Positions 23,305 through 64,000 of a stretch of DNA of 64,000 nt are shown one piece after another (positions within the stretch are counted from its first letter, which is position 1; each line of letters begins with the position of its first letter). Source of the stretch: Gordius sp. MW1 (taxonomy: Eukaryota > Nematomorpha > Gordioida > Gordea > Gordiidae). The DNA lies in NCBI GenBank assembly GCA_964036665.1, contig OZ038529.1, positions 22,330,060-22,394,059 of the forward strand. The letters run 5' to 3'. Below the pieces are notes generated by a model that saw only the letters and a program-made list of their open reading frames with translations, had not been told where the DNA came from and did no database searches. A program made the translations under genes and the position numbers.

Positions 23305-26300
23305 TCAATAATAATACCAGAAAACGATCCAAGTTCCATTGCTCCAACAGCCTTCGGAATGCTTGAAATACCAAGGATTTATTTTGTTGGTGACTAGAGA
23401 CCGCCATATCAACATTTTGTACTGAGTCTTTATCAAATCCCACAGCGTATCGCTCAAACCTTGTCCCTTTCAAATCAAAAATCATATATAACTAAAATAT
23501 AACGACACAAATTAAGAAATATTCGGGAAAATACATCATAAAAATGATATTATTAATGCTAAATGATTGAAAACATGGGCGTAGCCATGATTGGATTTAC
23601 ATGGGGGCAATAATGATTTTTAAAGGGGAAAAATGATGTTTTTTTATATTTCTAACCATAACTATAATTTTTGGATTTAAAGGGGGGGGGGCAGCCGCCC
23701 CTCCTTGCCACCCCCTGACTACGCCCATGTTTTCAAAGACTATGGGTATTCAACCTATGGCGGACTTGATTAACGAAAATCGGCTAAGGTGGTATGGGTA
23801 TATACATGGACGTAGCCAGCATTGGAATTAGAGGGGGGCAAAATAATATTTTTGAAATTTTAGCCATAATTTTAATAAATTTCAACAAATTTTTAAATTT
23901 TGAGGGGGTAGCAGCCCCTCCTTGCCCCCTCCCTCACTTGGCTACGCCCAGGGTCATATACTAAGAAGGGAGACAAATGATGGAAATCGAAAAGTACTGA
24001 ACATGGAGGTACCGGGGAAGAGAGGCAAGGACGACCTCGTGTCACGTGGTAAGGGCAAGTGGACAAAGTTATGAAAGCTAAAAAGATAAATCAGGACATG
24101 CCCCCCCCCTTCCACGGCTGTGGGATCGAATGAATGATAAAAAAGAAGGTTACACTAAAATAGGAGCGACAAATTATCATGGTTAAACCATTGATAATAC
24201 TAAAATTTGACAACACATCAGTTGAAAAGGCAAACAAAAAAATATAGATTTATTAATTATCACACAAAAAAGTTAAACAAGACGACATGAAATGACATAA
24301 AATTGGTGACATTCTTATCTTCAGGTCGGACCATTTCCAAGAATCGTCCCTATTTTCAAATTTATCATAAAAGGAATATCATAAGCAAGATAAGAAGATG
24401 TTAAAAAAAAATATAGAATTTTTAAACTTAATAAACATCAGAAAATAAGAAATGTTGTAGCATAAAAAACAAAAGAAATCATTAGCTTCAAATGCAAAAA
24501 ACCGAGATATCTCGATGAGAAATATTGTTGCACAGTATGTTTCGAAATAACAATATGTCTGACAAGTTGTCAAAACAAATTTATATATAAAGGTAAATAG
24601 TAGGGCATAGACGCAAAATGGAATTTGAGCTCGGGCGAGGTCGAAAAAAGTGAAGCCAATCAGCAGTCATTGGCTAGTCTATATGCGAAAGCAAAATAAA
24701 AGTCTTTTACAAAAACACAGGTTTCCACAGCCATTAAAAACCCCTAGAAGTTTCCACAGCAATTATTGAAAAATTACTAGGTTGGATAGGACGGACGGAC
24801 GGACAACCAAAAGCGAGCCCATAAATTGCATAACAATCAATATGAATAAATTGAACATAAACTCGATCGCGATGCAATTCTGTGCAGTGAAAACACTATA
24901 ATCTCGTAAAATTATAAACATCGGACAAGACAAGACGACACAATTATTTTTAAAAGACGGGGGGGGGGATTGCTATGCAATTAATGGGTTCGCTTTGGGT
25001 TGTCCGTCCTGTCCAACTTGTAATTTTTGAATAGTTGTCGTGTAAACTTTTACGGGTTTTTAATGGCTATGGACTTATGCTTCTGTAAAAGACTTTTTTA
25101 TTTACTTGTATATCTGCTGATATGACAAACTTATCCAAGTAGTGTATGCCCAGACCCTCTTCGTTAGTTATTATAGCTGCCGCGGTGTAACTAAATAAAT
25201 TAAAAATCAATCGTTCTTTTGAAAAATACTATCAAGCTAGTGTTTTAAAAAGGGCTAGGTTTCGTTTAGTCGACCGTAAGACTGGTCGACTCTGATTTGT
25301 TTTTCAAATCTCGAATAAGCCTTGAGGTCGACCAAGTAAATCAGACTAAAAAATTTTTGGTTTGTTTATGTTCCGTCGACTAAAACCAAAGGTAGCCCAA
25401 ACAAAATCCAGCCGTTTGTACAACACTTACGCGCAAACCAGAACCCGACCACAATTTCTAGCTAAAAATAGTAATTTAAACCCTAAATTTAACAAACAAT
25501 ATCGTACTTATATGATTGATATTTTGCAAAATAAATGCAAGAAATTTAAAGTCTACATTTAATAGGTCGGGTACGGGTTCTGAATATTTTGTCAAGACAT
25601 AACAACTTATTTTGTAACAATCGGATTGAAATAAAAAAATAACACAAATTTTGAATTATAAAGCAAAATCTTATGTTTTTGGTAAAAATTTTAATTTTTT
25701 ATCTCATTTACCAAAATTCCTAAAAAATGTGGTCCACCACGACAACTAATAGTTATGTTTTGGTTCATAATGTGAAGATACAAAAAAATATTAATTTATT
25801 TCCAAAATAACTTAATAATATATAAGAGATTAAATGTACAAATAACTAATAAGAATTTACTTTTCGGAAACAAACATACGCTCGATTTTGTTTTGGATAT
25901 TATTGAAGTAGTTAGCTTTGAGATTTTTCTCGAAAGTTCTAACCCCAAAATAACAAAAAAAAATACATTCATCTATAAAAAGTCTTTTTCACTTTTTTTT
26001 AAATATAAATAAATTTAATATAAATAGATTAATAAAAATATCCTTTAAACCAACAAATATTTTAATTGGGGATATAAGAAACACTATCTATATATAAAAG
26101 TCAACATTTTTTAACATACATAATACAAAATAAAATTTACTTTAAATAAAATGTAAACATTTTTATAAAAAATCAAAAATATTAATTGATTAATTGAAAA
26201 TTAACAACTTATAAAATCGATAAAAAATTAAAAATCAATAAATATATATTAATCACTTACACATTTATTAAATTTACGAGTTTAACTTTATCGATATCCT

Positions 26301-29300
26301 CCAAATTATTCGTTTGTATAAATGTATCCACGTGCTTGAATAACGTCCCTGAACCTGTTCATAACAAACAAACCAACTATTTTAACAGCTATAAATATCG
26401 TTTTAATTATTAAAATTTAAAAATATCAAAACCATGCACTAATATCACGATACACTGACGAAAAGCTGATAAAATTATTGGTAAGAGATAAAGTATTATT
26501 AGTCTATGCTATGGTCATAACTGATATAAATTGAAAGCACACACAAAATGGATGATAAATAGGATGTTTTAAATTACTGAGCATTTGATTATTCTACTGA
26601 GCATTTAATGATTCTACTGAGCAAAAATTGAATAAATTACTGAGCACAATAACTTGTTATCGGATAAAAATCAAAGGAAGCAACTCAAAATTTTACCATA
26701 CCTCTATGTGTGAATAATTCTTTGAGCACTTGGTCGGCCGACGTTATAACTATGGAACTATGAGGCGATAGTTTGGTCAATATTTTGTTGATACACAAAA
26801 TCTAAAATAGTAACAAAAATACGATATAAATTTTTGCTCATTAAATAAATACGCAGCACAAAACATAAACTAATAATAGTCGATTTTGGGAATTAAAATT
26901 GATTAAGTAAAAACGACAGGGTTTTGTTTGGTCGATCTTTTGTTCTTTTGGTCTGTTTTTCAAATTTCGACTAAGCCTAGAGGTCGACTAAGAAAAACAG
27001 ACCAAAAAACTTTTGGTTCGTTTATGTTTAGTCGACTAAAACTAAAGATCGACCAAACAAAACCTAGCCGTTTTTACAACACTAGTACGAACTATAATTA
27101 TTGTCTAAAAGTATACTTTTCTAACGAGACCAGGATCCATGGTAGGCAATTTGAGAATGTTATCCAAATCGGTGGGTAAATTGACTTGTGGTAAAACCTA
27201 ATCGATATTTCAAAATTTTTACTAAAGTATTGAACTACTTTGTGTAAACCCAAATTTCAATTTCCGTAAATTTATTCTAAGTTTTCAAACATAGTTTTGC
27301 GAGACAAAAGTATATGTTTAAAGAAAAATCCACTTTTTTCTAAATATAGTGAAAAAAGTTTGTCTGAGTTACCACCTTTATTAATGATTTAAAAAGCACA
27401 AATATTAATAAATCAAAAAATATCCCATCTTTTAAATTAAGTCTCATACTGTTTGATCAAAAATCTTATATATAATCATCACGTTAAAGCTGAAAAAGAA
27501 GTTATTATATCTACATTTAACAAGAGGAAACAACAAAACTATCTATCTGCCTTAAATTTATTAAAAACCTACAGACACTCATTCGTAAACCTAACTTTTA
27601 TAGGGAAAAAATTAACAATAATCATGAATCTACCATGTATTTAATATAAAAAAAGCTTAGGCTAACCCCTAAATATCTTAATAACTTTAATTTTACCATA
27701 TTTTAAAATTTATTTTTATTTATATAATTAAATTCTAGGAAACATGGGCGTAGCCAGCAATGGAATTAGAGGGGGGCAATCATATTTTATGGAGGGGCAA
27801 AATGATCATTTTTTAAAATTTTAGCCACAATTTTAATAGATTTTAACCAATTTTTGGATTCCAAGGGCCCCTTGGCTACGCCCATGTAAGGAAATAATAA
27901 TTTTCGAGTTTAATAAACTAAACCCTATTAGTAGTTCCACCATTATGGATTCCCCCATGGGAATTCAGGTACAAAATCTTGAGAGGTTGAAAAACGTGGC
28001 TCAGTTTATCTAGTATTTCCGATACATCAACCATATACGTTTGCCCAGTGTCATTTTCTCCCACATTACCCAATATCGGAATGTGATTCGAACTAAAAAA
28101 ACATTTAAATTGTTAATTGTTATGCAATTTATGGGTCCGTTTTTGGTTGTCCGTCCATCCGTCCTGTCCAAATTGTAATTTTGCAATAATTGATGTAAAA
28201 ACTTATTATATATTAATTGCAATGCAATTTATGGCTCATTTTCGGTAAAAATGTCCTGTCCAATCCTATAGGGTCTTGTCCAACTTAGTTGTAAATTTTA
28301 ATTTTATTCATAAATCTATATTTTTGGTAACAAAATATAATTTGTAAATCGGAACTGCTCGGTATTGCTTAAAAATTATTTTTTACGATTTTTAAAAGTT
28401 TTAAAACAATCAATTTAGGCGAGAATGGGAAATAAATTTAATAATTTTTAAATTTTGCTAAGTTGACGAAATTTATAAAATTAAATTAAAATTTCGATAT
28501 AACAAAAAACTGAGAGGCTTACTGATAATACGTTTTAAGTATATATCGGCCATTCCATGACAAATCAAAACGTTTTCGACCGACCATCTCACATTTGGAA
28601 AGTTTCGGGTAAGTGTGTAGGCCTCATATATATTCGTGTTGTAAATAACGGCTCGGTTTTGTTTGGTCGACCTTTTTTTGGCCTGTTTATCTTAGTGAAC
28701 CTCAAGGCTTAGTCGAAATTTGTGATCAGAGTTGACCCTTATCTTTAGTTGAACCGAAGGTCGACCAAACAAAACCCAGCCGTTTTTTAAAAACACTATC
28801 ATATATTGTAGTAATTTTTACACATTTTAGCCATTTTGGGCGAAACTTTTTACGTTCGGGACGTAAAAATGTCCAAATCACGCTCAAGCGGGTTTTACTG
28901 ATTTCACTAATTTTGTCATATTTTTGTAAGGAATGCCACTATCTTCTTGCATTTTGGTGTATTTTGTTCTTCTTTATCGAAACAAATTAAACAAAAAAGC
29001 TCAAAATTCTGCGGTTAATTTATTTATATATATAAATGTGAAATATTCTCCACAAAATTTAATAAGGGCTCACTTGAGGCACCAATTGATGAGGTCGTAA
29101 TTGATACTTTCCAGCTCTCCGTAATAATTTTCGTACCTAAAACAATTTCAAAAATACAATTTAGAAAATTTTAGGTAAAACATATTGTAAAACCATGAAC
29201 ATAGCCAATATAATTTCGTTGAGTCCAACACAACTACGAATTCTCTACAATGAATTGTTAGTACTTTTTCTAATAACAAATTTATAATTTAACTAAGAAA

Positions 29301-32300
29301 TAAAACAAAATTAAGGGTATAAACAAGGATAAATTGAAAAAATTCGTACCCCTTACTAATTAGGTCGTTGGATGGAGGGCTGACTGTAAATAATAATCCG
29401 CTGCCCGAAAAGAAAAGATGACAGGGAGTCTTGTTGAAACCCAAATAATCCGCTAGTAATAGGCTGTTACGCAATTGATTTTTCTTAAAATTCTAACACA
29501 CACAAAAAAATATTTACATATATACATGCGTGTTGTAAAAACGGCTGGGTTTTGTTTGGTCGACTTTTGGTTTAACTAAGACTATCTGGTCGACTCTAGT
29601 CTGTTTTTCATATTTTGACTCAGCCTAGAGGTCGACTAAGAACAACAAACCAAAAAACCTGTCTGTTTATGTTTATGTTTAGTCGACTAAAACCATAGGT
29701 CGACCAAACAAAACACAAGAAGACTTATTATAAATACAATGTCATAATTGAGTGTTACTTAAAAATGAAGAAAATGTTATAAACGATTTGAGCTGGAAAT
29801 TCTTATATATTCCAGATACAAACTTCCTATAATTTATTTTTAAGTTTTAAGTGCAGACTTAGAGCATTAAAATTAATTTACTAACCCAAAACCCCGTTGA
29901 TTTTAAAGTCTAAAGCCAATGAAATCTTATTTTCGTAAACTAGCTAGACATGGGCGTAGCCAGGGGGAGGCAGAGAGGGGCGGCTACCCCCCTTTAAATC
30001 CAAAAAACCTTTCAAATTTAAAATAATTATGGCTAAAATTAAAAAAAAAAAATTTGCCCTCCTTAAACATTATTGCCCCCCCCCACCCTAATTTAAATTC
30101 TGGCTACGCCAATGTAACTAGTAATAAAACCTCACATTAACTTATCTTGCCATTGCTAGTGTAGTAGAATTAAAACTTTCCTTAAAGTAAATCTAATTTA
30201 AAAATTTAGCTGAAGTTGAGTAAGAACATAAGGTGAGAATATCCAGCATTAGCTAGTGATTTAGGTTTGCGACTCGTTCAAATTATGCTATTTTTGCTTA
30301 GGTGGTTTACAATTTTCTAAGCCAATATTTTGGATTAGGAGAAAGCAAATTGATAATCTCAAATTATTTTAACCTATTTACAGGAAAAAATACATTTGTA
30401 TCTAGATCAAGAAGGAGGGACTTTTGCTTTAGTTCAATTCGGGCCGGGCTCGGGTCGAGCCGCCTTAACAGGCCCGACCCGAGCCCGATTATTTTATTAA
30501 ATTCTGCCCGAGCCCGGCCCGAAACCCGATCGGGATGGGCCGGGTTCGGGCGGCCCGTGCAGGGCTCTAGCCTTCTATACATTTCGATTACAATTTTAAG
30601 GATAGTTCTTAATAGTATATTGATATCTAAAATTTTAAACCTAATATTTGAAAGTTTAAATTTGGATTTAAATACATGTTAGGGTTCAAACCTTAAATTC
30701 CGGCAGAGTTATTGGCTTGGCGGGGTCGACTTGGGTGCCGTGCAAAACGATGCATTTCATTCCGTTCCTTTGCAAAAAGCATAAACTCGAACTCAAACTC
30801 TTCAGCTGTAAAATGAGTTCGAAAAATAATTTTTTGTAATACCTACCGTTAATATTCGTATAAATCAACAATTTGGACAAGACAAGACCGGACATTTTTA
30901 TTCGAAACTAAGCCCGAATAGTGTTGTAAAAACGGCTGGGTTTTGTTTGGTCGACCTTCGGTTTTAGTCACAAAACATTAACAGACCATAGTTTTTTTGT
31001 AAGAAAAACAGACCAAAAATCGTTTGACCTGTTTGTGTTTAGTCGACTAAAACCAAAGGTGGACCAAACAAACCCAGCCGTTTTTACAACACTAAGCTCT
31101 AATACGCAAATGAAATTTTGAGGACGACTCTTAATGGAATTTAGATTAAAGATGGATGATTGGAGTTGCGAAAGGCTTTGTATATCCTTAAATGGGGGCA
31201 AAACTTTGTTGTAAATTTCAACCATAATTTATATATATATATAATTTAAATTTACGAGATAGGATGGCTTTTGCTATCCTTTATAGTATATGTGACCTAG
31301 TTAGTTCATAGGCGGTTATAATGTTTTACTGATATGATTAAGTTAGGACTGTCAATGGTATACAATAGACCTATAGTCTGAGAGAAGAGAACCATAGACT
31401 AATAGACTGCTCATTCCCTTTTAAAAAGTGTACCCCATTTTGTCAGCAATTTTGATAAGTGAAACATGAATTTTGGCCAATTTATATGGTTTGATAAATT
31501 TTTAAAATCGTTATAATAATTAAAATGGGTTGTTTCATGTTATAAGATCAATGATTATTGTCCAATGCAATCCATCGGTATATACAAACTCTACTTCACT
31601 TATCAAAATGGCGATCGTTTTTGGCAACACTTTTGATGCGTGAATATATAAGAGATGAGCAGTCTATTAGTCTATAAAGGGAACCGATAATACATAAAAT
31701 TTTAAATGCCCCCGACCATCGATTAGATATTAATCGTTATCGATTATCCCTAATAGGCGCCAAATTTTTTTAACTAATCCTAATTAGATAACAACAAAAA
31801 AATGGCGTGCTACTACAAATTGAAAGCATTAAAATGGCCTACATGGGCGTAGCCAGGTTTTGGATTAGGGGGGAGGGGCGAAACGTTTAAAATTTGAATT
31901 AGGGGGGGGGGAGCAAAACATATTTTTTTTTAATTTTTAAGGGTTTTTGCATTGAAAATTTTTTTTCGTCATTTAAGGGGGAGGGGTTGCTAAACTTGAA
32001 CACAACATCTAAGGAATTAAATTGTCGAGCTTTAAATAGCTATAAATTTTAACCTAAAGGCAATTTCTGGTCAAACATCACTTCTCCTGCAAGTTACATT
32101 TATAGACTGATAGACTGCTCGACCCCTTTAAAGTGTTCAAAATTTTGACATCCATCTTGATCATTGAATTAATAGTTAGGAAAATGTATACAATGAGTTG
32201 GATAAACCATTTAGAATATTATCAACTTAAGCCCTTAAAAATTAAAATAAAGGGCCATGGAAATTTATCGTCTGCTAAAATCGTATCAAATTACACGCTA

Positions 32301-33832
32301 GTTTAAAGCAAAAGTGGGCGACTTTCGCGAAAAGTAAGAGATTTATATCGTATTAATTTAATGAGTAAAAAATGTAGAATTTTACCAATTCCTCTTCTTC
32401 AAAAACTTCGTCGGATAGATGAGCTATGGCGAAAGGTCTTAGTGTGTTACTGAAATTTTTGAAATACTTTAACCAATACCTTCCTTCCTTGGGGTCGGCA
32501 TCAAACTATAAAAGTTTGAAAATTGCGTAATTTTTGGATTAAATTTGAAATAAGCTTTTAATGAAAAGCAACTCAATACAAGTATCATCAAAATATCAAC
32601 TTGGAGTTTTAGGTATTATTATGCTGATTAAATAACTATAAATAAATTAGTTCGTATGAGATTTCAAGATGGGAAATTGTTAAATAATAAATATTTTAAT
32701 AAATAATCAGTTTTTTTGCTAAGTGATAAAATTTCCACGTAAATAACAAATTTAAGAATCATTAAAATTATATATAGCATCTATATATATAAAGTAAAGT
32801 GTATGTATGTATGTAAGGGCTAAATTCTGAAACTACCGGCCCGATTCGCACGAAACTTTACCCGTAGGTTTCTAGGGCGGTCAGGGGTAAAATAGCTTTT
32901 GCAGAATCCTAAATTTTTATTTAATTTTAAAAAAGGACTAAATTCTGAAACTACCGGCCCGATTCGCGCGAAAATTTAGCCGTAGATGCCCAGGGCGGCC
33001 AGGGGTAAAATAGCTTTTTCAAATTCCTAAAATACCTTTTCGTTTTAAAATATCGGACATTTCCCGGCCGGCAGTTTCATTTATAATATCATATACAATA
33101 ATGACGTCATACATACAAGGCTGAAGTTTTCTCCAATTAGATATTTAAAAGTATAATAAAAATGTTACTATATACGGTCAAAATTATTGGGGTTTAACAA
33201 ACTAATATTTAAATTAAATAAATAAAATTTAAATTATGCAATTTTTGCCATTATTATCACGTGATCGATCATAGAAGCATATTTTTAATAATTATCCGTC
33301 CTTCAATTAATTATTTTATTATTCATAACCACCCATACATATATAGTATTTTCTAGAAATAAGCAAAACAACGTTTGCCGGGTCAGCTAGTATAATTATA
33401 AAAAAAACTTATTTATTCATTTAAAACTCTCTCATTTTATATAATTTAAGAAGTCATTAGACAGGGAATAATTACGGATTTTTTTCTGATAAAATCTTAA
33501 CCATTAACGAACCATTATTGAAGCAGACGATTTTAAAAAGCAAAATGACAACTTTAAATTTATTTTCAAAATTTATGCCATAATATTAATCAAAAAGCGA
33601 ACTATAACAATGTCTTAAAATTCTTAAATATTTATCGTTTTACCTCTAAAAGGAATCGTTTCAAGTCTGAATTGATTTCATTTCCATAACTCAATAAACG
33701 GTTTTCACAAATCACTGATAATGATTCAAGAGGCGGAATAAATTTAGTAAATCCTGAGTTACTACTTCTTAAGAATCTTCTGGAAGAATGTAACTTTAAG
33801 CATGATAAAAGATTTCTAGGAAAAGATTTCAT
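23305..33832 (-). CDS. NAGS: N-acetylglutamate synthase, mitochondrial; 12 exons, 462 residues
   Basis: Exons (minus strand): 33832-33644, 32505-32386, 30805-30692, 29483-29350, 29136-29074, 28092-27924, 27197-27117, 26801-26702, 26354-26261, 25938-25861, 25190-25106, 23466-23305. All have GT...AG ends, lengths keep frame, and the order matches animal NAGS. The enzyme makes N-acetylglutamate from acetyl-CoA and glutamate, the activator of carbamoyl phosphate synthetase I. The N-terminus (MKSFPRNLLSCLKLHSSRR) is a likely mitochondrial presequence. An amino-acid-kinase-like region follows: ADPKEGRYWLKYF, SLCFLQRNGMKCIVLHG, LRNSLLLADYLGF, YYGELESINYDLINWCL, SNHIPILG, LNSHGG. The GNAT acetyltransferase domain holds GSGTLFKHVDTF, YTAAAIITNEEG, YLDKFVISADIQ and the acetyl-CoA-binding QGQG (residues 409-412), then INPWYFKHSEGCWSNGTW and a stop soon after IVFW. 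Alternatively a 34-nt intron changes the last few residues. Human NAGS is longer (534 residues), mostly at the N-terminus. Introns hold many MITEs. No broken frame was found. Confidence 0.93.
23574..23729. repeat. MITE family A copy in NAGS intron 11
   Basis: CATGGGCGTAGCCATGATTGG at the left, CCTGACTACGCCCATG at the right, usual core with GGGGGGGGGCAGCCGCCCC. Confidence 0.75.
23735..24140 (+). pseudogene. RTE retrotransposon C-terminal fragment split by a MITE
   Basis: Before the insertion LRWYG can be read (23785-23800); after it ILRRETNDGNRKVLNMEVPG, then KRGKDD. These match the C-terminal region of the RTE element at 60.6 kb (LRWYGHVERRDD, then GKRRRGRPKLTW). A family A MITE (23805-23950) sits between them. 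It lies in NAGS intron 11, opposite in direction to the gene. Confidence 0.75.
23805..23950. repeat. MITE family A copy nested in an RTE fragment
   Basis: CATGGACGTAGCCAGCATTGG at the left, CTTGGCTACGCCCA at the right. Flanks GGGTATATA and GGGTCATATA look like an imperfect target duplication. Confidence 0.75.
24626..24838 (-). repeat. Dispersed repeat family C copy in NAGS intron 11
   Basis: From GAGCTCGGGCGAGGTCGAAAA through AGTCTTTTACAAAAACAC and GGATAGGACGGACGGACGG to AGCCCATAAATTGCATAAC. Minus orientation relative to the copy at 20.1 kb. Confidence 0.7.
24970..25095 (+). repeat. Dispersed repeat family C, truncated copy
   Basis: ATTGCTATGCAATTAATGGG to CTTCTGTAAAAGACTTTTT. It lies 130 bp from a copy in the opposite orientation and ends next to NAGS exon 11. 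Confidence 0.65.
25238..25428. repeat. MITE family B copy in NAGS intron 10
   Basis: TAGTGTTTTAAAAAGGGCTAGG at the left; CCAGCCGTTTGTACAACACT at the right. Confidence 0.75.
26574..26646. repeat. Short tandem repeat of ACTGAGCA units in NAGS intron 8
   Basis: Four units built on TTACTGAGCATTTGATTATTC / TACTGAGCATTTAATGATTC / TACTGAGCAAAAATTG / TTACTGAGCACA, with period about 20 bases and drifting length. Confidence 0.7.
26905..27084. repeat. MITE family B copy in NAGS intron 7
   Basis: Left end degraded (AAGTAAAAACGACAGGGTTTTG); right end CTAGCCGTTTTTACAACACTA is intact and stops 33 bp before NAGS exon 7. Confidence 0.7.
27743..27886. repeat. MITE family A copy in NAGS intron 6
   Basis: CATGGGCGTAGCCAGCAATGG at the left, CCTTGGCTACGCCCATG at the right. 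Flanks CTAGGAAA and TAAGGAAA match at 6 of 8. Confidence 0.75.
28112..28290 (+). repeat. Two head-to-tail partial copies of repeat family C in NAGS intron 5
   Basis: A first partial unit (TTGTTATGCAATTTATGGG through AATTGATGTAAAAACTTAT) is followed directly by a second (ATTGCAATGCAATTTATGGC through CTTGTCCAACTTAG). Both are truncated at their 3' sides. The first begins only 20 bp from NAGS exon 6. Confidence 0.65.
28635..28797. repeat. MITE family B copy in NAGS intron 5
   Basis: CGTGTTGTAAATAACGGCTCGG at the left; CAGCCGTTTTTTAAAAACACTA at the right. Confidence 0.7.
29528..29720. repeat. MITE family B copy next to NAGS exon 4
   Basis: GTGTTGTAAAAACGGCTGGG at the left; the right side reaches GGTCGACCAAACAAAACACA but lacks the terminal repeat. 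It lies about 45 bp upstream of NAGS exon 4. Confidence 0.7.
29949..30114. repeat. MITE family A copy in NAGS intron 3
   Basis: CATGGGCGTAGCCAGGGGGAGG at the left, CTGGCTACGCCAATG at the right. Flanks TAGCTAGA and TAACTAGT match at 6 of 8. Confidence 0.75.
30440..30571. repeat. GC-rich hAT-type MITE fragment
   Basis: Blocks of GGGCCGGGCTCGGGTCGAGCC, GCCCGAGCCCGGCCCG and, at the right end, GGCCCGTGCAGGGCTCTA. The last 15 bases match the end of the MITE at 39267-40302 in cyclin T intron 5. The left end is not visible. Confidence 0.6.
30919..31094. repeat. MITE family B copy in NAGS intron 2
   Basis: TAGTGTTGTAAAAACGGCTGG at the left; AGCCGTTTTTACAACACTA at the right. Flanks AGCCCGAA and AGCTCTAA match at 6 of 8. 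Confidence 0.8.
31394..31677. repeat. MITE family E copy in NAGS intron 2
   Basis: ATAGACTAATAGACTGCTCA at the left; TGAGCAGTCTATTAGTCTAT at the right. Flanks AGAGAACC and AGGGAACC match at 7 of 8, so this family too makes 8-bp duplications. Confidence 0.75.
31842..31990. repeat. MITE family A copy (right end missing)
   Basis: CATGGGCGTAGCCAGGTTTTGG at the left, then GGGGGGGGGAGCAAAACAT and GGGTTTTTGCATTGAAAATT. Same subtype as the copies at 16.3 and 56.5 kb. The right terminal repeat is absent. Confidence 0.65.
32101..32260. repeat. MITE family E, one-ended fragment in NAGS intron 2
   Basis: TATAGACTGATAGACTGCTCG then TTTAAAGTGTTCAAAATTTTGACATCCATCTTGATCAT, matching the left half of the copy at 14.5 kb. 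Confidence 0.5.
32780..33390 (+). mobile_element. Non-autonomous Helitron, 611 bp, in NAGS intron 1
   Basis: Starts TCTATATATATAAAG and ends GGGTCAGCTAG, inserted between A and T, with no terminal inverted repeats. A hairpin GCAAAA-CAAC-GTTTGC lies 12 bases before the CTAG end. The interior has two tandem units with CTGAAACTACCGGCCCGATTCG followed by CGAAA, 130 bp apart. The TC start, CTAG end, A/T target and 3' hairpin together are the Helitron signature. No Rep/helicase is encoded. Confidence 0.85.
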
Positions 33833-36587: not shown

Positions 36588-39500
36588 CTACACATTAGTA
36601 GCCGGGGGTAAAGGAGGCAAGGGTGAGAGGGGTGGGGGTGGATTAATGGGCAAAGGTGGTGGAGGCTGTGGGCCCTCAACTTTGGGCATGTCTATGGGTT
36701 GAGCAACTTTAATATCATCCATGGGCGGCCGTGCCGCTCTATCACCACTACTGTCGCGGTGCCGCTTCTTATCCTTTTTCTTCTTTTTCTCCCCCTTTGA
36801 CGAAGAAGATGACGATTTGTGGTGTCTATGCTTGTGGTGGTGTAGATGTCCGCCGCTCGATGATATATCGAGGTGCGGATCGGGGGGTTCGTTTCCCAAG
36901 AGCTGATTTTGAATACTTTCCAGCGTTTGAGCCAAGTAATCATTTTCAGCTTCACCACCCGGCTTACTAACCTCGGCAGAGGTTTCCAGTGCAGGAGGAC
37001 TACCGGGAGTTGCTTGATGAGCGAGGAGCTGTTGCTTGATTTTAAGTTCGGACCGAGTTTCGTTAATCAAGTCGCTCATGGTTTTGGCCTTCTTCACCAC
37101 TCCAAAAGTGCTCTGTTGCTGATTAACATTGGAGTTAGAGGTGGTAACGATAGAGGAGGAAGAGGGAGGGCAAGTAGTCCTGAGTCTCTTGAGAGAAGAT
37201 GAATTGGGCGAAATTGGATATATCTTATTATCCAAAACAACGGTGGTCGAACTTTCCCCGTGACTGGCATTAAAGCTAGTATTAATCGATGTGTTAGTCG
37301 TTATAATGCCAGTGTTGAGGGTAGCGTGGTAATGCTGATGGTAAAGGTTTTTGGTATGTTGTTGAGCTTGGGGAGGGGGCAAGTGACCGTTGGACGCGGC
37401 AGGTTTAGGAAAGGAATTTTTGGCGTAATTCAATTTTTCTCTGTCACTCGAATTTTTGGGGTAAGTAGGCAGTCCAGCCCCACCCAACGACTGTTGTTTA
37501 GGGTGTGTTGGTATTGTATTTGCACTGGTAAGGGGTAAATTATTGAAAGAATTGCGAATGGATGCTTGACTAGTTGATGTGAGGGAAGGTATGGCTTTTT
37601 GACCGGCATTGTTTGCCGATGCGGCAATAGCAGCTGCGGCTTTGGCGTGGTCCGCGTGTTGCTGGTGATACATGTTCAAGAACTTTTGGTGAGCCGCGGG
37701 AAAGTCGGATAGGTCATCACCTAATAAGAGAAGGAACGTCGGCATGATATACAAAAAACTAAGTTCATTATGGGCTTAAATATAATGGCAAAAATGGCTT
37801 AAGCATATTTTGCTATTAACACTACAACTAAGTTCCTATCAAGGGTTACAGGATTACTCTAAAATTTTTATTGACTGTACTTTAGAGGTGGGCGCGGGCC
37901 GTGAAATTACGCGTGACCCACCGTGTCACGGTGGGTCACGGCGTGAATGTGAAGAAATTTTAAATTATTAGGCGTGACGGGCCTTTCCAAAATTTTCCCC
38001 GTGCGTGAGTGGGCGTGAATACAATTTTCCATAAATCACGGAAATTTTAATTTTTAAAATTGTTTTTTATTAATATAAATTTGCAGATTTATAATTTTAA
38101 AAAATATATATATTAATGATTATTTAATTTAATTTGGTTTTTAAAAAAAAAAGATTAGTTTTTGAAAACAAAAAATCTTTCGCATTTTATAAACAGCCGA
38201 GTGAACCTATTTTTACTTTTGCTAGCTTTTTCTTTTAAAATTTATATGTTCAAATTCAAAACGTATTTATCAACAAGCTTATTTACATGTATATAGTGAT
38301 CTTCTTTCAAGTATTTTATTATTATATATATTATTTTACAATGAAAATGTAATTCTTCGCATTAAATTATAAATTTTAGTAATTACAAATGTCATTGAAA
38401 GTTTTTACTTTTTATTATTTGTAATAAATGCTTTAATGTAATGTATGAGTAGTGAAGGAGTAGAATTTATAATATTATATTAATATATAATAATTATTTC
38501 TTTATTAACAATTAAACTCAAAAAACATGAATATTATTCTTTTTTTAAATAAAAATTTCGATTTATTGTATATATTTTTTGTTATGGAATTATAGAAATA
38601 AATAGAATAAATTTAAAAAGTGTATAATTATAGATTACCAATTTTGAAAAATTTAAAAACATCGTGAATTTTCGGGCGTGACGTGCGTGAATCAAAATAT
38701 TGCCTTTCGTGAGCGGGCGGGTCGGGTCAAAAAAATTTTAGTGGTAAGCGTGAGTGGGCGTGAATTTTTTTTAATACCACCGTGAGTGGGCGGGCCGTGA
38801 ATAAAAAATTAGGCCCGCGCCCACCTCTACTAAAATTTGCCCTGCTAAAATTAAAATGTCATGACTAACTTTATGGATGGCCAGAGCCAATTATAAAATG
38901 CTTTAGCTTGCCATCCCTACTAGCTAAATTAAAAAATGTTGTTTATACTGATAGCATCGGTTGAATTAGAATCGTCACTTTTGAGTCTCCTTTCAAATGG
39001 TTCATCCTGTGAAAATAAGTAAAATATTTAACACATAAAGTATTTATTTCAAAGGTTTATTGCAATTTTTATGTGATTTTACCTTTCTAAAAAGCTTCAT
39101 TTTGAGTTTGTGAGGACTCTTCACATAGATATTCATAAACTCTTCCATGGCCCCTGATATATTTGAATATCAATAATTAAACTTTTATGTAAATTCAATC
39201 AATCAAATGTCAGTGGGAGTTATAATAAAATCAATATTATTTACACATAACAATGGTACCCTAACCTAGAGCCCTACAAAGTCACTTTTTTTCAACTCAA
39301 ACCCGAAAGCTTTTTAAAATTTTCACCCCAAACCCGACCCTACCTGAAAGCTTTTTAAGCCAAACCCGACCCGAAAGTAAAAAAAAAGTTAATATTGTAA
39401 AATTGATTTTAATGGATTTAAATGGCAACAAAATATTATATCCCAAAAAGGGACAAAACGATATATGTCTATCATTTCCCGGTCACATGCTAAAAAGATA

Positions 39501-44459: not shown

Positions 44460-46800
44460 TCAATTAGCTTGGAAGCGATCTCTTCGGTAGATGTTTCTTT
44501 GAGAGGAACGGCCATGGGCCATCTCGAGAAACGATCGATTGCTGTCAAAATATGTGTAAAACCGTTTGAAGGTGGTAGTGGTCCAACTAAATCGACATGT
44601 ATGTGTGAGTCTTGCGTTTGGTTGTGCGAAAGTCCCGGGCGTCGTTATAGTGTGTTTATGAACTTTGTTTAATTGGCATTTTAGACAACACTTAGCCCAA
44701 TTTCTAACATCTTGGTTCATCGAAGGCCACTCATACACTCTTGAAATCAGTTTGCTTGTCGCTCGTATCTCAGGGTGAGAAAAAGCATGAAAGTGATCGA
44801 AAACCTTCCTTCTGAGTGTTTCAGGTAATACCGGTCGGGGTTTAGTGGTTGAAAGATCACAAAGAACTTTACACTCTGATCCTGGGATAGGAATTAGTTG
44901 TAACTTAAGGGATGATGAGTTTTTTAGTCCTTCTAAGGATTCATCAGTCCTCTGGTGCTTGCTAATTTCCTCCAAATCCGGAATTTTTGGTAATTTAATA
45001 GAATCTATTTCCATCCGGGAAAGAGTGTCCGCTACGGTGTCGCTTTCGCCTTTAATGAATCGTATGTTAATAAGTAGTATATTGCGAGATAATGTCCAAC
45101 TGTCTGGTTTCTCCTGGAGAATACTGGTCGGGTTTTGCGTTGAATGCTTAAGTGAGTGGTTTATGGTCGGTATAGATGGTGAAATTACGACATTCTAAGA
45201 TGTGGCGGAAATGCTTTATGGCCAAATATATTGCGAGAAGTTCGCGGCCAAAAGTGCTGTACCGGGTTTGAGTGGGTTGTAATTTCGCTGAGAAGAATGC
45301 TAGTGGGTATACCTTGTCCGAAATGGTTTGCTCCAAAACTGCTCCAACCGCTGTGTCTGATGCATCAGTGGTTAGTGTGATTTCTGTGAGGGGGTCCGTA
45401 TTCAAAAAGGTTAGTGTGGTAAAATTCAATAATGTTGCTTTTGCTTCTTCGAACGCCTTGACCTGAACGTCGTTGCAGGTTACGGACTTTTTGGACTTCT
45501 TCAGCAGATCGGTCAGAGGTTGAAGGGTTCGGGAGATTCCGGGTAGAAATTTATCATTCTTAGAAATATCCGGAGCTTTTTTAGTGAATCAGGCAGGGGA
45601 AACTCGTTGATGTCCCTGACTTTTTCCAGTAGCGGGGCAATACCGGTGCTTGATACCTGGTGTTCGAGAAATTCGAGTTTGTTAACTCCGAATTTGCACT
45701 TCGAAGGGTTGATTCTAAGATCGTACTCTTGCAATCCTTGAAAAACAATTCTCAAGTGCTGTTCGTGTTCCTGCTCCGATGCGCTAGCTATCAGGATATC
45801 ATCAGTACGCGTAAACGCAATCTAATCCTCTTAGGACTTTATCAATGAATCGTTTGAACGTCTGTGCTGCGTTTTTAGTCCAAACGGCATTCTTGCAAAT
45901 TCGTACAGGCGGAAAGGTGTTGTGACGGCTGTATTTCATACGTCATTTGGCGCAACGAGGATGTGATGGTACGCTCTTACGAGGTTCAGTTTGGAGAATA
46001 TGTTTTTGTTGCACAGATTGGCGGTAAAGTCGTGTATGTGTGGTATAGGATATCTGGCCGGTATTGTAACTTTATTCAGGCCTCTGTAGTCTCCACAAGG
46101 TCTCCAAACACCTGTCTTTTTGGCGGCTAAATGCAATGGGGCTGCCAGTTGCTTTCTGATTTCTGAATGATTCCTAATTCTAACATATATTCGAATTCTT
46201 TTTTCGCGACGTTCAACTTTTCCGCCGTTAGTCTTCTTGGACGTGCGTACTGAGCTGGTCCTTTCGTTAGAATGTGGTGGAGTACATCATGAGGTGGAAT
46301 CTGTCGGTTGAAGTTTAGAGGGGATATGAGTGACGGAAATTCGTGCAGATTTGCATCGAATTTTATGCTGTGATTGCTGAGTGCTACACGGATACCGAAT
46401 GTCTGGTGTGGTGAGGATGTTCCTCTCGACAAAAATTGTGAGGTGCTGTCTATAAGTCGTTTATTGTTAATGTCCACAACTAACTTATAGTGGTGCAGTA
46501 AGTCAGCTCCAAATAGAGGAGTGTGTACGTTTGCGACTAAAAATTCCCATTTAAATTCCCGTCTTAAGCTAAGGTCTAAACTCAATACGACTTGTCCGTA
46601 TGTGTGGATGTTGTTTGGTTAGCCGCTTGTAGAGTTGGGCCATATGGGATTAATGGATGTTTGGGAGGGGGTGGGATGACGCTAACTTCAGCGCCTGTGT
46701 CGACGAGGTATTTCCGTTGGGTGGACCGGTCGAATAAATAGAATAGGCGGCTGAAAGTACGGCCGTTTCCCATAGTCGCCCATATGGGACGGCCCGTCAT
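44460..46800 (-). pseudogene. Gypsy pol: protease, reverse transcriptase, RNase H, integrase
   Basis: Protease: YLVDTGAEVSVIPP at about 46700. Reverse transcriptase: GVWRPCGDYRGLNKVTIPARY, then IFSKLNLVRAYHHILVAP, where family members have an Asp instead of the Asn in KLNL; the second catalytic pair reads RTDDILIAS, keeping both Asp but not the usual Tyr-x before them. RNase H: TTDASDTAVGAVLEQ, GRELLAIYLAIKHFRH and YTDHKPL keep D-E-D. Integrase: the zinc-binding HAFSH ... CLKCQ and catalytic HVDLVGPLPP and TTDRGSQ are visible. Frames change at about 45.93, 45.5 and 45.1 kb. Domain order RT-RH-IN identifies Ty3/Gypsy rather than Copia. Confidence 0.88.
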
Positions 46801-46990
46801 TTTTTTTTGTTGAGAGGTGGTATTGAAGGAGCAATATTGAGTGCATTTTCTTGCTTTCTTGAACTTCTGATGGTACCGACATATCAGTTGGGCGTTGTCT
46901 GGATGATGACCTAGATCTGCTTGACCGTCTCCACGTCGTCCTACTGCCGTTGGGATTGCTTGTTAATTGATTTACTCTGAGTTTTAATTG

Positions 46991-48856: not shown

Positions 48857-51390
48857 CTATTCGGATATATCATCATCGAGGGGATCTTCCAAAATTGGCC
48901 AAGAATCCGCGAACGATTTAAAGTTGTACTTGGCTATAAGAATACCAAGTCTTTGTTTTAGTAAAAAGGGTACCGAATGTTTAGACGGGGGAGAACGTCT
49001 TCCAACCTCTTTAAAAAAAGCTAAGGCCTGTTTGCCAAAGATGCCTGAACACGAAGCAACCAATGGAATAAAAATATTTGAGGATAATAGGGCTTTGTAT
49101 TTATTGGTTTTTCGCCCCTCTGCAACAGCTAAAGAATCATTGTTGCAGTTAGAGGGGGCAAATAGGTCAATACATGTGAAGTCCCATTTAAGGTGAAAAC
49201 CATTGCTCCATGGGAGTAAAGAAGATCCATCAGGACGCATACGTCCCTCCAAGGCGGGGTCCGATGGCTCCAAGATGGATGGAATCTTTGCTCTCTTCAG
49301 GGCACTTTGAATTAAGGCGTTGGCCTTATTGTGTCTAGCATATTTGAATTTGTTTGCCAGGCAGTGTAAGGGATGCCTGGCTTGTTCGTCTACGAGTATG
49401 CTGCAATTTCGGCAAGTAAATGTCTTCGAAAATTTCACCCCTAGCCGGAGTGCTATGGAGTACGAAAGCTCCGAGTCCTCCAGCATCATCCCGGTGAGAC
49501 AGCTTGGGTAGGCCTCTAGCCATTCGTGACCTGAGCCATCAAACAAAAACGACCTTAAATTAGAACACTGACTTGCATCGCTACTCGAAATTAGATAATC
49601 AACGGAGTGCAACACAAGTCCGGCATCCCAATCTCTTTGTCGTGAGGTTTGTGGCAAATGTGTTTCTGGCTTGGTGTTGTTTTCCCAAGTAGCTAAAGCA
49701 ATGGGTAGAAGCGGGTCTTCTTTAACCGGATACAACTTAAAAATGGTATCTTGTACGGATTTATAAGATGAAATAAAGGACACTAGAGATATTGAGGCCG
49801 GTGAGCGAATCCCTAAACCACCCGATTTGGTTGGTAGGGAAGCTTGTAACCAGCTATGAGTATTGAATTTAATATTTAAAATAGATTGTAAAATAGATTT
49901 AATATTTTGTTCGAAGAGGTTTAAAATTTCCGAGTGTAAAAAAGCACTTGAAGAGCGAAAACAGTGCTGAATCTTTGAAATATTAAAATAGTTTTTTATT
50001 ATGTAAAAAGCGTGGTGTGAAGGCAGACACTTTAAGAGATCTAATTTTGACTTTAAAATAGAGAGATTTTTCTCCAAATAAGTAGCGAGTCCAACTCTAC
50101 CGCCTATGGGCGATCCAAGGTGGCACATAGCGTCTTTCTTGATTGCTAAAAAAGGGGTAACGTGGGGATATAATGTGTAGTCAGGGGGTTGAAAGATCTC
50201 ACATTTGGTCTCATTTAGTCTAAGTTTTAAAATTGGTTCGAATTCTTTTATAATTTTGATAGCTTTAAAAACTTCGCGAGGATGGCCACAAAGGGTGGCA
50301 TCGTCCAAGTACCATATATTTAATGATAGGTCGCATTCGTGCGATATTTTTTCTACTAAACTTTGAATACCTAAGCAAAATAATGGCGGACCCAATGGGT
50401 CACCCTGTTGAATACCTTCAGTTGATTTAACTGTAAAATCCCCAAATCTTAAAAAGGATGTTGAGCCATAACTTAATAGGATGTAGTTATGGAGCTCTGG
50501 AAAATCCTCGAGAAAATTTTTAATAAGGACGTCTCTACGAATGCAATTGAAAGCGTTAGCAAAGTCTAATTTGACCATGCAATGGTCCGATGGTATGAAT
50601 TCGAGGGCTAGCCTAGCGGCATGACTAGCAGCTTCGCAGCCTCCCTTTATTCCAAAACCTAATTGGTGTGGACTTAGGTTGATGGAAAAAATCGGTTTAA
50701 TTTTATTGCATATTATTTTCGAAATAATCCTCCTAAATACTCCGCCAATAGCGATAGGTCTTAGGGAATTATCTGGCTTCTTAATCGCTATCAATTTGGC
50801 GCCAAACAGAATAGGTATTATTTCATAAGGTATGTTCCCATTAACAATAAGGTTGCATAAAGATGTTATGGCCTTTAAGAGGCATGTTGAGTTAAGGTTA
50901 TTCATTTTAAGTAAATCTTGGAGATATATAGGGCGGATTCCGTCTAGGCCAGCTGCAGAATCTAGGGGAAATGAGTTAATGGCTTCGGCGACCTCAGCGG
51001 AATCTAAGGATATGTTGGATTTAGAGTGGGGATATTTATCTGAGGATGAAGAAGGAGGATGTTTTAGTATAAGCTGGTTGTAAGTTTCCTGTGTGCTTGG
51101 GGCGATTGTATCGTTGCCATAAAACACCCTCAGAGCTCCTTTTGGATTAAAGTGGTTAATTTTGTTAGATACTAGCTTTGCAGTATGTTTCAGTGATGAT
51201 GCAAAAGCAGGTTTTGTATGGGAAGAACATAAGGGTTTATTGATATCAAAAGTAACGATGGAGTCTTTTATCTGTTTAGATAGGTTTAAGTCTTCGGGAG
51301 GCCTGATAAAGAGAGTGTAGTATGAGAATTTAAGGATTTTGTCCCAATTAGCAAGGTTCATAGGATCATTAGTTATGGAGGTTATCAAAT
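48857..51390 (-). CDS. RLE-LINE reverse transcriptase/endonuclease, main frame
   Basis: A single uninterrupted frame of about 843 codons from 51388 (open farther upstream to about 51500, ending IPRGARQAVQQL just before). Reverse transcriptase landmarks: KPDNSLRPIAIGGVFRRIISK, catalytic Asp in VKLDFANAFN (about residue 275), GIQQGDPLGPPLF, and YLDDA (about 359-360), then KLRLNETKCEIF. After the thumb come GGLGIRSP, and a zinc knuckle C-x2-C ... H-x3-C (from about 659) followed by ARHNKAN. The endonuclease motif is RMRPDG (Asp about 720) and WDFT (Asp about 735). This R-PD...D arrangement after CCHC is diagnostic of RLE LINEs. The protein copies its own RNA at a nicked chromosomal site. All catalytic residues are present. 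Related C-terminal fragments occur at 5.5, 6.8, 11.3 and 12.8 kb. Confidence 0.9.
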
Positions 51391-51759
51391 TTATAATAAG
51401 TTGTTGAACAGCCTGTCTTGCCCCTCTAGGAATTCTAGATAACGTGTTAGGGAAGGAGAGAGTAAGGAAGGAATTACTCCATGAAAAATCTGGAGGTTAA
51501 ACATTGGTTGGCAAGCTGTAATCATTAAAATCAAGGACATAACTTCTGCTTGATCATCCTCTACATTTGCTATTAAAGGATAGGTTTGTTCTCCAATATC
51601 ACCTATAATCGTTATAGGGGGGATTGCACTTACTGGTGGTGCTTTTTGACCAGAATATTTACATCTTGCTGACATAGGGCCATGTAAAAAGAAGAAGAAA
51701 TTTTTATTTAGTCCAATGATTCTCTTGCAGGAGGGGCAAAGTGCTTTAAGGTTAACCAT
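51391..51759 (-). CDS. RLE-LINE N-terminal segment, split off by a frameshift
   Basis: Starts MVNLKALCPSCKR and contains a CCHC-like finger (C-x2-C, then LHGPMSARC). The frame to about IMITACQPMFN belongs to the LINE protein. Around 51495-51500 the reading shifts: the rest of this frame (ending LFNNLL) is out of phase, while the neighbouring frame gives PDFSWSNSFLTLSFPNTLSR and leads into the main reverse transcriptase frame. One base gained or lost explains the break. A finger at this place is usual for RLE LINEs, where it helps bind the DNA target. Confidence 0.8.
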   Translation of the reverse strand: MVNLKALCPSCKRIIGLNKNFFFFLHGPMSARCKYSGQKAPPVSAIPPITIIGDIGEQTYPLIANVEDDQAEVMSLILMITACQPMFNLQIFHGVIPSLLSPSLTRYLEFLEGQDRLFNNLL

Positions 51760-61605: not shown

Positions 61606-62733
61606 CTAAATAATTTTGTGAATGCAAAGGAGATCATGGAATTCATGGTAAATGTATAAAAAGAAATTAAAGATGAAATAGTAGGCATACTTTGCAGCCG
61701 TATTTTTAAAAATAATCTTATCCGAGGCTGTAAACGTTAACGTTACAAATAGAAAAACGGCAAAAATTGTTAGAAAGTACCAAGCTACATCTCTTTCTAG
61801 CGCTTTTTGATCCCTTCTCACCTGATCAACTCTTCTTTGCACTTAAGTATTTGTATTTCTATTTTCAGTGGCTAAATGACTAATGCGTTTATTAGATCCT
61901 GTAACTAAAAGGTTGGATAATTTTGTTAAGCGATTTTCAGTTTTCAACTCAGTTGGTATTATCTGGCTGGTCGGTGCAGCAGTGGTTACGGGGGTAATAT
62001 GATTAGTAAATGATTCAGTAGTGGTTACAGCGATTCTCTGATGCCTCATCGTTTTAAGTATGAGAAAGTACATAATAATAATGACACATATATTAATGTA
62101 TTGCCAATACATATGGATTAATAAGATCAATGCGGCATAAGCATTGTAACCCATTAGGCAGTTTCCCACGTTTGGTATAAACACTATGCCCGGACCCGCT
62201 TGTAGATGTCCTATTCTGACAAAAATTGAGATTAGCAAAATTGCTGAAATTCACCACTTAGTCAGGGTCGCTGTTACCCATTTATTAACTTTGAATGGGT
62301 GGCACACGTAAATGTACCTATTTAAGGCTAGGAAAAACATGTGAATCGAATGTGACAAAAACGCCGTTTCTGTTATCATTCCGAAAACTGAACAGAGAAG
62401 CCACTTGGTTGACAAACTTCGTTTAAAAATGAAGAGGAGATAATCGAGGCTAAATACTTGTCCACCAATCAAGTCGCAAATTGTTAGACTCGAAATGAGC
62501 ATCATTGTTGGATGGGGTCTCAGATTTTTGTTGCTCAGTATAATTGTCAACAAAAAAGCATTATCAAGAGTTCCCAACACTGAAAGGACGAATAAAACGG
62601 TAGAACCGACTCGTATTGTAAGGTATAACCCAGGACAGGGATCGGTCGTCATGTAGGCAAATGAATCGCTGCCTAACGTGTGTAACAAACTGAAATTAGA
62701 CATATTTAAAAGGGGAAAATAAAAATATGACAA
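61606..62733 (-). pseudogene. Rhodopsin-like GPCR frame, intronless, with two in-frame stops
   Basis: One reading frame of 376 codons from ATG 62733 to a TAG at 61606, interrupted only by TGA at codon 161 (62253-62251) and TAA at codon 297 (61845-61843); no frameshift. Segments in order: TM1 (about 38-64, VGSTVLFVLSVLGTLDNAFL), TM2 with the conserved Asp (LTICDLIGG), an extracellular Cys before TM3 (KWLLCSVFG), TM3 ending LNRYIYVCHPF (NRY in place of DRY), TM4 spanning the TGA (LTKW-stop-ISAILLISIF), TM5 (about 210-235), a Thr-rich third intracellular loop containing the TAA, TM6 (AWYFLTIFAVFLFVTLTF) and a weak TM7 (YYFIFNFFLYIYH) without NPxxY. Ligand unknown. The TGA follows a TGG, so a single G-to-A change could have made it. 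Most likely a young pseudogene; an unannotated intron or readthrough is less likely. Confidence 0.75.
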
Positions 62734-64000
62734 TAATTCGTCTTCTTGAAATAATTATAAAAGATTCGATAATTGATCCCATACAATAAACACATTTGTT
62801 GTTGTTAATCAACAGGAAAGGCCCGTAACTGGGTATAATAGACTAAATTAAATTTTATAGTAAATAAAAGAACGATACAACTTAATAAATAACAAATTAG
62901 TTAACAAAATTAAACTTATCACTTACTCAAAATTGAATGATTCCAAATGAAACTTGAAAGCTTATTAAATTGATATTAAAATCGTGCAAAATTTCTAAAT
63001 TTGGTTAATTTTAAAATTATGGATCTAACAAGATAAAAAAAAATTATGCTCTCTGTGCGCAACGCACAAGTCACTCTAGTCATTACTAGCAAAGTGATCT
63101 CGATTTCTTATTTAAAAAGAAATTGTTATATAATAGTAATTTAGATTTTGAAATTAAAAAACAGGGGATGTGTATATTATATAATGTTAAAAAAACTTTT
63201 CTTCTTATATATGTTGTTAAACTTAAATAACTTATAGGGATACAGAACATAATGTTTTAAATAATGTATTATTATAAAAGATATTAAAATAGCTAAATTC
63301 TCATTTTAGCGATTTCAAAAAAATGGAGAGAAAACTATTTTAAGTGAAATAGAAGTATTTTAAATAAACTATATATAATTTTAGCACAGAAAAATTTTAA
63401 GATAAAAAAGGAAAAAACTCTACAATTTTTTTTTTAAAAATATTGATTTTAAATCATATTAAAGTCTTTATTTTGTTAGACCTGAATAACAAAACAAATT
63501 TTTAAACCAATTTTAAAATGTTTGAAATTTCTTATGTTTCACTGCATCAAGGATAACTCATAACCCATTAATTTAATTAAAAATTATAGACTTAAGATGA
63601 AACATGACATGACTAACATATACATATCTCGCAACAATTCACCATTGATGATTTAAATTAGTGCTTAATTGATCACAGTATTAACCAAATTTGGCTACTA
63701 TGACTAGAGATTAATTGAGCAGCTCAGCTAGATCTCTGCTTTCTTCGCATTGAGAGCTTTGACAGAAGACATGACATGTAATATATTAAATTATAAGGCT
63801 ACTCGGGATTGTGCATAAATTAATGCGGCATGATACTAAAATTTTCAAATAATAAATCACCTTATGGCAATAATTAGTTTGGAATATGACATGGGGTCTC
63901 ATAATCAATATATATAAAAATTTAACTCCGTTTTCTTTGTCCTCTAATAACTCCTAAACTTCTCGACCGCCACCAAATTTGGCCAGGATGGTGTATATAT
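62734..64000. other. Region upstream of the GPCR; possible Helitron 5' end at the window edge
   Basis: AT-rich, no gene. From about 63907 the sequence TCAATATATATAAAAATTTAAC, then GACCGCCACCAAATTTGG, resembles the start of Helitron-type elements (TC start, TATATATAAAA), but the element runs out of the window. Confidence 0.35.

Follow-up and report, generated by a model that had tools for sequence, protein, structure and literature searches.

The window analysed here, a stretch of 64,000 nucleotides (contig C3, 22330060-22394059), raises the question of whether a series of short exons encodes an intact N-acetylglutamate synthase (NAGS) and, if so, which animal carries the gene and which pathway the enzyme would serve. 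The original prediction had joined twelve short exons with compatible splice phases into a complete NAGS of 462 residues. When the gene was rebuilt from the sequence, the same span and length were obtained, on the minus strand from 33832 to 23305. The exons measure 63 to 189 bp each and, once joined, give a 1389-nt open frame that codes for 462 residues followed by a stop codon, and the 11 introns, which range from 213 to 1639 bp, are all GT-AG, with compatible phases and no internal stop (Table 1). The start codon is the first in-frame ATG downstream of an in-frame stop. Exon 1 and the donor of exon 4 are predictions of the gene model. A stronger-looking exon 4 donor, GTAAGG, located 7 nt upstream, was ruled out as it breaks the frame, while GTACGA at 29350 keeps the frame open; this choice, and the join of exons 4 and 5, is supported by a conserved GE in the alignment with the NAGS/kinase chain 3S6K. 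A genome search with the PF04768 profile, in which the positive controls were silent, returned a single match, to exon 12 only, and by this match NAGS may be present as a single copy.

Table 1 Exons of the NAGS gene in window coordinates, with the features assigned to each and their support.
Feature	Position	Strand	Content	Support
NAGS exon 1	33644..33832	-	ATG start; probable mitochondrial leader, residues 1-63	No homology support
NAGS exon 2	32386..32505	-	Amino acid kinase-like domain begins	Joined model, 3S6K alignment
NAGS exon 3	30692..30805	-	SSLCFLQRNGMKCIVLHG aligned with SSLSFLQEVGLTPIVLHG of 3S6K	Joined model
NAGS exon 4	29350..29483	-	Donor GTACGA	Joined model, 3S6K alignment
NAGS exon 5	29074..29136	-		Joined model, 3S6K alignment
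NAGS exon 6	27924..28092	-		Joined model, 3S6K alignment
NAGS exon 7	27117..27197	-		Joined model, 3S6K alignment
NAGS exon 8	26702..26801	-	Kinase-like domain ends, acetyltransferase begins	Joined model, Pfam NAT, 3S6K
NAGS exon 9	26261..26354	-	Acetyltransferase domain	Joined model, Pfam NAT, human NAGS alignment
NAGS exon 10	25861..25938	-	Acetyltransferase domain	Joined model, Pfam NAT, human NAGS alignment
NAGS exon 11	25106..25190	-	Acetyltransferase domain, YLDKF motif	Joined model, Pfam NAT, human NAGS alignment
NAGS exon 12	23305..23466	-	Acetyltransferase core, stop codon; Leu433 where human NAGS has Arg476	

Comparison of the joined-exon translation with domain profiles and solved structures, the kind of check that had been proposed for the model, bears out its identity as NAGS. 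The protein matches Pfam NAT (PF04768) over residues 315-460 (7e-39; 133.7 bits against a cut-off of 27), and among solved structures the acetyltransferase domain is closest to the catalytic domain of human NAGS (4K30; 3.2e-36), with which it shares 58 of 125 aligned residues. A phmmer search aligned 3S6K over residues 66-460 (2e-55), touching exons 2 to 12, and a second NAGS/kinase chain, 3S6H, over residues 64-459. For the N-terminal half, the acetylglutamate kinase chain 3ZZF aligns over residues 181-330 (2.1e-23), and the argB model TIGR00761 matches at 1.1e-12, under its own cut-off. None of the 8 NCBIfam matches to the protein reaches its cut-off (the best scores 253 bits against 426), and Pfam AA_kinase (PF00696) gives no match on the protein at E values up to 1; a genome search with PF00696 left the NAGS exons unmatched and returned one match elsewhere, on C8. 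An N-terminal amino acid kinase-like domain and a C-terminal NAT domain are nevertheless found in one protein, in the domain order of 3S6K and 3S6H, two bifunctional NAGS/kinases from bacteria. Unlike these, the gene described here is a nuclear one with 11 introns. Furthermore, the VVKVGG kinase motif of 3S6K reads IAHLSD in our protein, and with the motif lost, kinase activity is not expected and the enzyme should be a synthase only. Loss of the kinase motif, leaving a synthase without a kinase, is a mark of vertebrate NAGS. Residues 1-35 contain R and K and neither D nor E, and exon 1 looks like a mitochondrial leader. Judged from its sequence, then, the protein is NAGS and the gene is intact and ordinary.

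Most of the active-site positions compared agree with the human enzyme. Thirteen human NAGS active-site positions were taken from passages of PMC3722096, with the numbering anchored on Lys444, and 12 of them are identical here, including Tyr485, Asn479, Lys401, Lys444, and Arg474. (At human position 473 the chain has Trp, though one sentence in those passages gives Arg.) At the thirteenth position Leu433 replaces human Arg476, and since this residue lies inside exon 12, the substitution is no matter of splicing. Both 3S6K and 3S6H carry Arg where our protein has Leu. According to PMC3722096, Arg476 anchors the side-chain carboxylate and is invariant in vertebrate-like NAGS. Another difference from human NAGS, in a comparison with 4K30 that covers the catalytic domain only, is a C-terminus that is about 30 residues longer in the human protein. 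The original prediction had described the C-terminus as ending very soon after the IVFW motif and as shorter than in vertebrates, and here two lines of evidence agree with it: just 2 residues of the model follow the end of the alignment with human NAGS, and the Pfam NAT profile, 168 positions long, is matched no further than position 150. When the sequence was scanned for a thirteenth exon, 13 candidates came up, and by eye none of them resembles a NAGS C-terminus. The segment around human Phe525, a residue that contacts NAG, has no counterpart in the model.

Partners for such an enzyme are present in the genome. A profile search with PF02787 found two carbamoyl phosphate synthetases. One lies on C3, the contig that also carries NAGS, at a distance of 13.4 Mb from it (roughly 8.948-8.972 Mb), and combines a fused glutaminase, both synthetase halves, and an N-acetylglutamate effector domain. 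This is the domain set of the CPS1 chains 5DOT and 6UEL, which however are without the GIC cysteine. The glutaminase region has 5DOT as its best match (1.2e-105), but its motif reads GICLGNQ against GISTGNL in CPS1, and this catalytic cysteine makes the synthetase on C3 one of the CPS III type. The effector domain is likewise closest to CPS1 (7.6e-64; 105 of 183 residues identical), and it keeps 10 of the 13 NAG-site and switch positions described in passages of PMC4655335, the differences being Gln1368 to Glu, Arg1371 to Leu, and Ala1393 to Gly. In the clinical CPS1 variant Arg1371Leu, the NAG activation constant rises by two orders of magnitude, according to the same passages; a lysine adjoins the leucine in the CPS III described here, so this effect may not carry over. 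The second of the two synthetases is CAD, a separate gene near 7.22-7.24 Mb of C5, where a profile match to aspartate transcarbamylase and, by eye, dihydroorotase exons are found.

The remaining enzymes of the cycle are found on other contigs. The second locus detected with PF02729, on C2, has two matches, one of them under the cut-off, and is OTC; its best match is 1C9Y (4.6e-97), and the motifs DTWISMG and HCLPRKPEE are intact. We take residues D263 and C303 to fall within DTWISMG and HCLP, respectively. Arthropod sequences filed as OTC are without both residues, as PMC12419136 reports. Arginase, also on C2, has two profile matches and contains GGDHS, DAHTD, and DIDSLDP, while argininosuccinate synthase (ASS) on C1 and argininosuccinate lyase (ASL) on C8 have two profile matches and one, respectively, these being domain matches rather than whole gene models. 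The genome therefore seems to hold a complete urea-cycle gene set of NAGS, CPS III, OTC, ASS, ASL, and arginase.

The loss of Arg476 and of the Phe525 segment, both substrate-side features of human NAGS, could be taken as signs of a decaying copy, or of one acquired horizontally. We consider this very improbable, given 12 open, in-phase exons with 0 internal stops, and given that, among solved structures, the NAT domain is matched best by mitochondrial NAGS, OTC by OTC, and CPS by mitochondrial CPS1. A dispersed repeat also speaks against it: the NAGS span has 9 matches to it, with 3 in the OTC stretch, 4 in the CPS stretch, and 6 in the CAD stretch; three shuffles of each of the OTC, CPS, and CAD stretches gave none. 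With this repeat in common, all of these genes would seem to belong to a single genome.

The likely identity of the animal is read from its mitochondrion and its telomeres. The assembly has 211.8 Mb in 12 contigs, eight of which measure 21 to 37 Mb. TTAGGG-type repeats occur at 6 of the 12 contig starts and at 3 of the 4 contig ends fetched; most arthropods have TTAGG telomeres. Contig C12 (14,798 bp) is mitochondrial, with ten pieces that have profile matches, to cox1, cox2, atp6, cox3, nad3, nad1, and cytochrome b and, three times, to the antiporter-type NADH subunit model. By eye, AGA codons occupy conserved serine positions, and AAA codes for lysine. One strand carries, in order, cox1, cox2, atp6, cox3, nad3, nad4L, nad4, nad5, nad6, and cob, and the other carries nad2, between nad5 and nad6, and nad1, before cox1. 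This order covers the protein genes without atp8, tRNAs, or rRNAs; nad4L and nad6 were recognized by eye only, and nad2, nad4, and nad5 were told apart by eye. ARAGORN, run with bacterial settings, found no tRNA in the C12 stretch (L039). The same protein-gene order is described for Parachordodes, Gordionus, and Gordius in passages of PMC10380579, which also call long inverted repeats within mitochondrial coding genes exclusive to Nematomorpha. Such hairpins abound on C12, where we count 33 pairs (12 + 21) with arms of 17 to 108 nt that are 90 to 100% complementary, located in nad1, nad2, nad4, nad5, nad6, atp6, cob, and the stretch before cox1. Exact 20-mers with their reverse complement within 200 nt number 842, in 26 regions, whereas no more than 1 turned up in any of 50 shuffles, and four nuclear slices matched to C12 in length gave 0, 3, 20, and 0. 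Additionally, cox1, cox2, and nad3 are free of hairpins, which matches the published hairworm pattern. The mitochondrial gene order and the hairpins in coding genes place the animal in Nematomorpha, probably in Gordioida.

Other sources fit less well. The eight large contigs fit the n = 8 of the bryozoan Cristatella, as stated in a passage of PMC11371463, but Bryozoa are out: the mitochondrial order of Bugula, the sole bryozoan order compared, differs from that of C12 (gene order as given in part of PMC2678162), and the hairpins point elsewhere. The centipede Strigamia is also out, with a different mitochondrial order according to a portion of PMC4368715. It is unlikely that hairworm mitochondria and insect chromosomes were mixed in one sample, since insect-type telomeres are missing from the nuclear contigs, which also carry genes unseen in the insect survey of PMC12419136.

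Reading the genome as that of a hairworm and not of an insect touches all other readings of the window. The original prediction reasoned from insects, and from it one could suppose an insect that has no urea cycle but has retained NAGS for a different purpose. The term NAGS does appear once in a tephritid fly paper (PMC5507520), and two reviews credit one insect, the honeybee, with OTC (PMC4581275, PMC8517447). CPS III and OTC occur in this same genome, however, the telomeres are of TTAGGG type, and C12 has the order and hairpins of a hairworm; the arthropod cuticle family PF00379 had 0 matches in a genome search whose controls were silent too. We regard an insect source as scarcely credible. 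As the honeybee is credited with OTC, which weakens the argument from CPS III and OTC, the insect setting is dropped mainly on the mitochondrion and the telomeres. The suggestion that NAGS could help to narrow down the lineage was nonetheless a useful hint.

In passages of PMC12419136, CPS III and OTC with intact motifs are reported in 0 of 150 insect genomes, and its authors dispute a previous claim that four Lepidoptera have every gene of the cycle; NAGS does not appear in the main text of that paper. The urea cycle is described as absent from arthropods or nematodes in the relevant passages of PMC2566978, PMC9079694, and PMC12419136. No paper that combines hairworm and urea-cycle terms was among the matches listed, and we do not claim priority. 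Nematomorpha are the sister phylum of nematodes. A complete set in this position suggests that the cycle was retained in ecdysozoans and lost separately, and we do not claim vertical descent as shown.

We consider it highly likely that the gene encodes an intact, nuclear, vertebrate-like mitochondrial NAGS of a hairworm, whose product would activate the CPS III of a urea cycle. The N-terminal leader would bring NAGS into mitochondria, where the kinase-like domain, having no kinase motif, would serve as the regulatory part as in human NAGS, and the acetyltransferase domain would form N-acetylglutamate from acetyl-CoA and glutamate. N-acetylglutamate would then activate the glutamine-dependent mitochondrial CPS III, and the carbamoyl phosphate produced would pass through OTC to citrulline, through ASS and ASL to arginine, and through arginase to urea, if the flux runs in this direction. 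It is possible, though in our view rather unlikely, that NAGS serves mainly to supply arginine, or to provide N-acetylglutamate for a different role in mitochondria, and not to dispose of urea as waste, with the same enzymes run anabolically. Genes for every step from ornithine to arginine are present, a parasite in host fluid may need to excrete little urea, and stramenopiles are thought to run the cycle in this manner (in a passage of PMC7542463). Against this, arginase is present and closes the cycle, and the chemistry of NAGS is identical either way.

NAGS itself is a further member of a known family, and it is the complete cycle set in an ecdysozoan parasite that is unexpected. Such a set in a hairworm would mean that ecdysozoans retained the cycle and lost it more than once. 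A parasite of arthropods would then own a route for nitrogen and arginine that is missing from its hosts. A more speculative proposal, which we consider improbable as a whole, is that hairworms kept a complete NAG-switched cycle lost separately by nematodes and arthropods, the cycle thus having still been present in early ecdysozoans, and that in the hairworm line Arg476 to Leu in NAGS together with Arg1371 to Leu and Gln1368 to Glu in CPS changed both maker and sensor, with the possible result of a weaker switch or of one that responds to a modified acyl-amino acid.

Several other features were observed in the window and the genome. C8 (37.4 Mb) is the largest contig yet stands eighth, after C1 to C7, which fall in size; this would fit a sex chromosome listed behind seven autosomes. 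Within the window, a 395-residue ORF at 36591-37775, on the minus strand, contains many Ser, His, Lys, and Pro residues and has no Pfam match at 0.01. Pieces of a Gypsy-like retroelement lie at 44460-46962 on the same strand, with an integrase zinc-binding domain (1.6e-16) and neighbouring ORFs assigned by eye, of which one has no match in Pfam. An open reverse transcriptase ORF of 879 residues (48860-51496, minus strand; RVT_1 8.5e-19) belongs to a non-LTR-like element, and an ORF that looks similar by eye is found near OTC on C2. At 61846-62754, again on the minus strand, two adjoining open pieces belong to a rhodopsin-type receptor gene, with 7tm_1 matches of 4.9e-11 and 0.0042, the latter under the cut-off. 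Finally, a short dispersed repeat around GGTTTTGTTTGGTCGAC occurs between 22740 and 31100 (for example near 28660, 29550, and 30940), with 18 matches in the window and others elsewhere in the genome; by eye it often forms inverted pairs, and it looks like a MITE.
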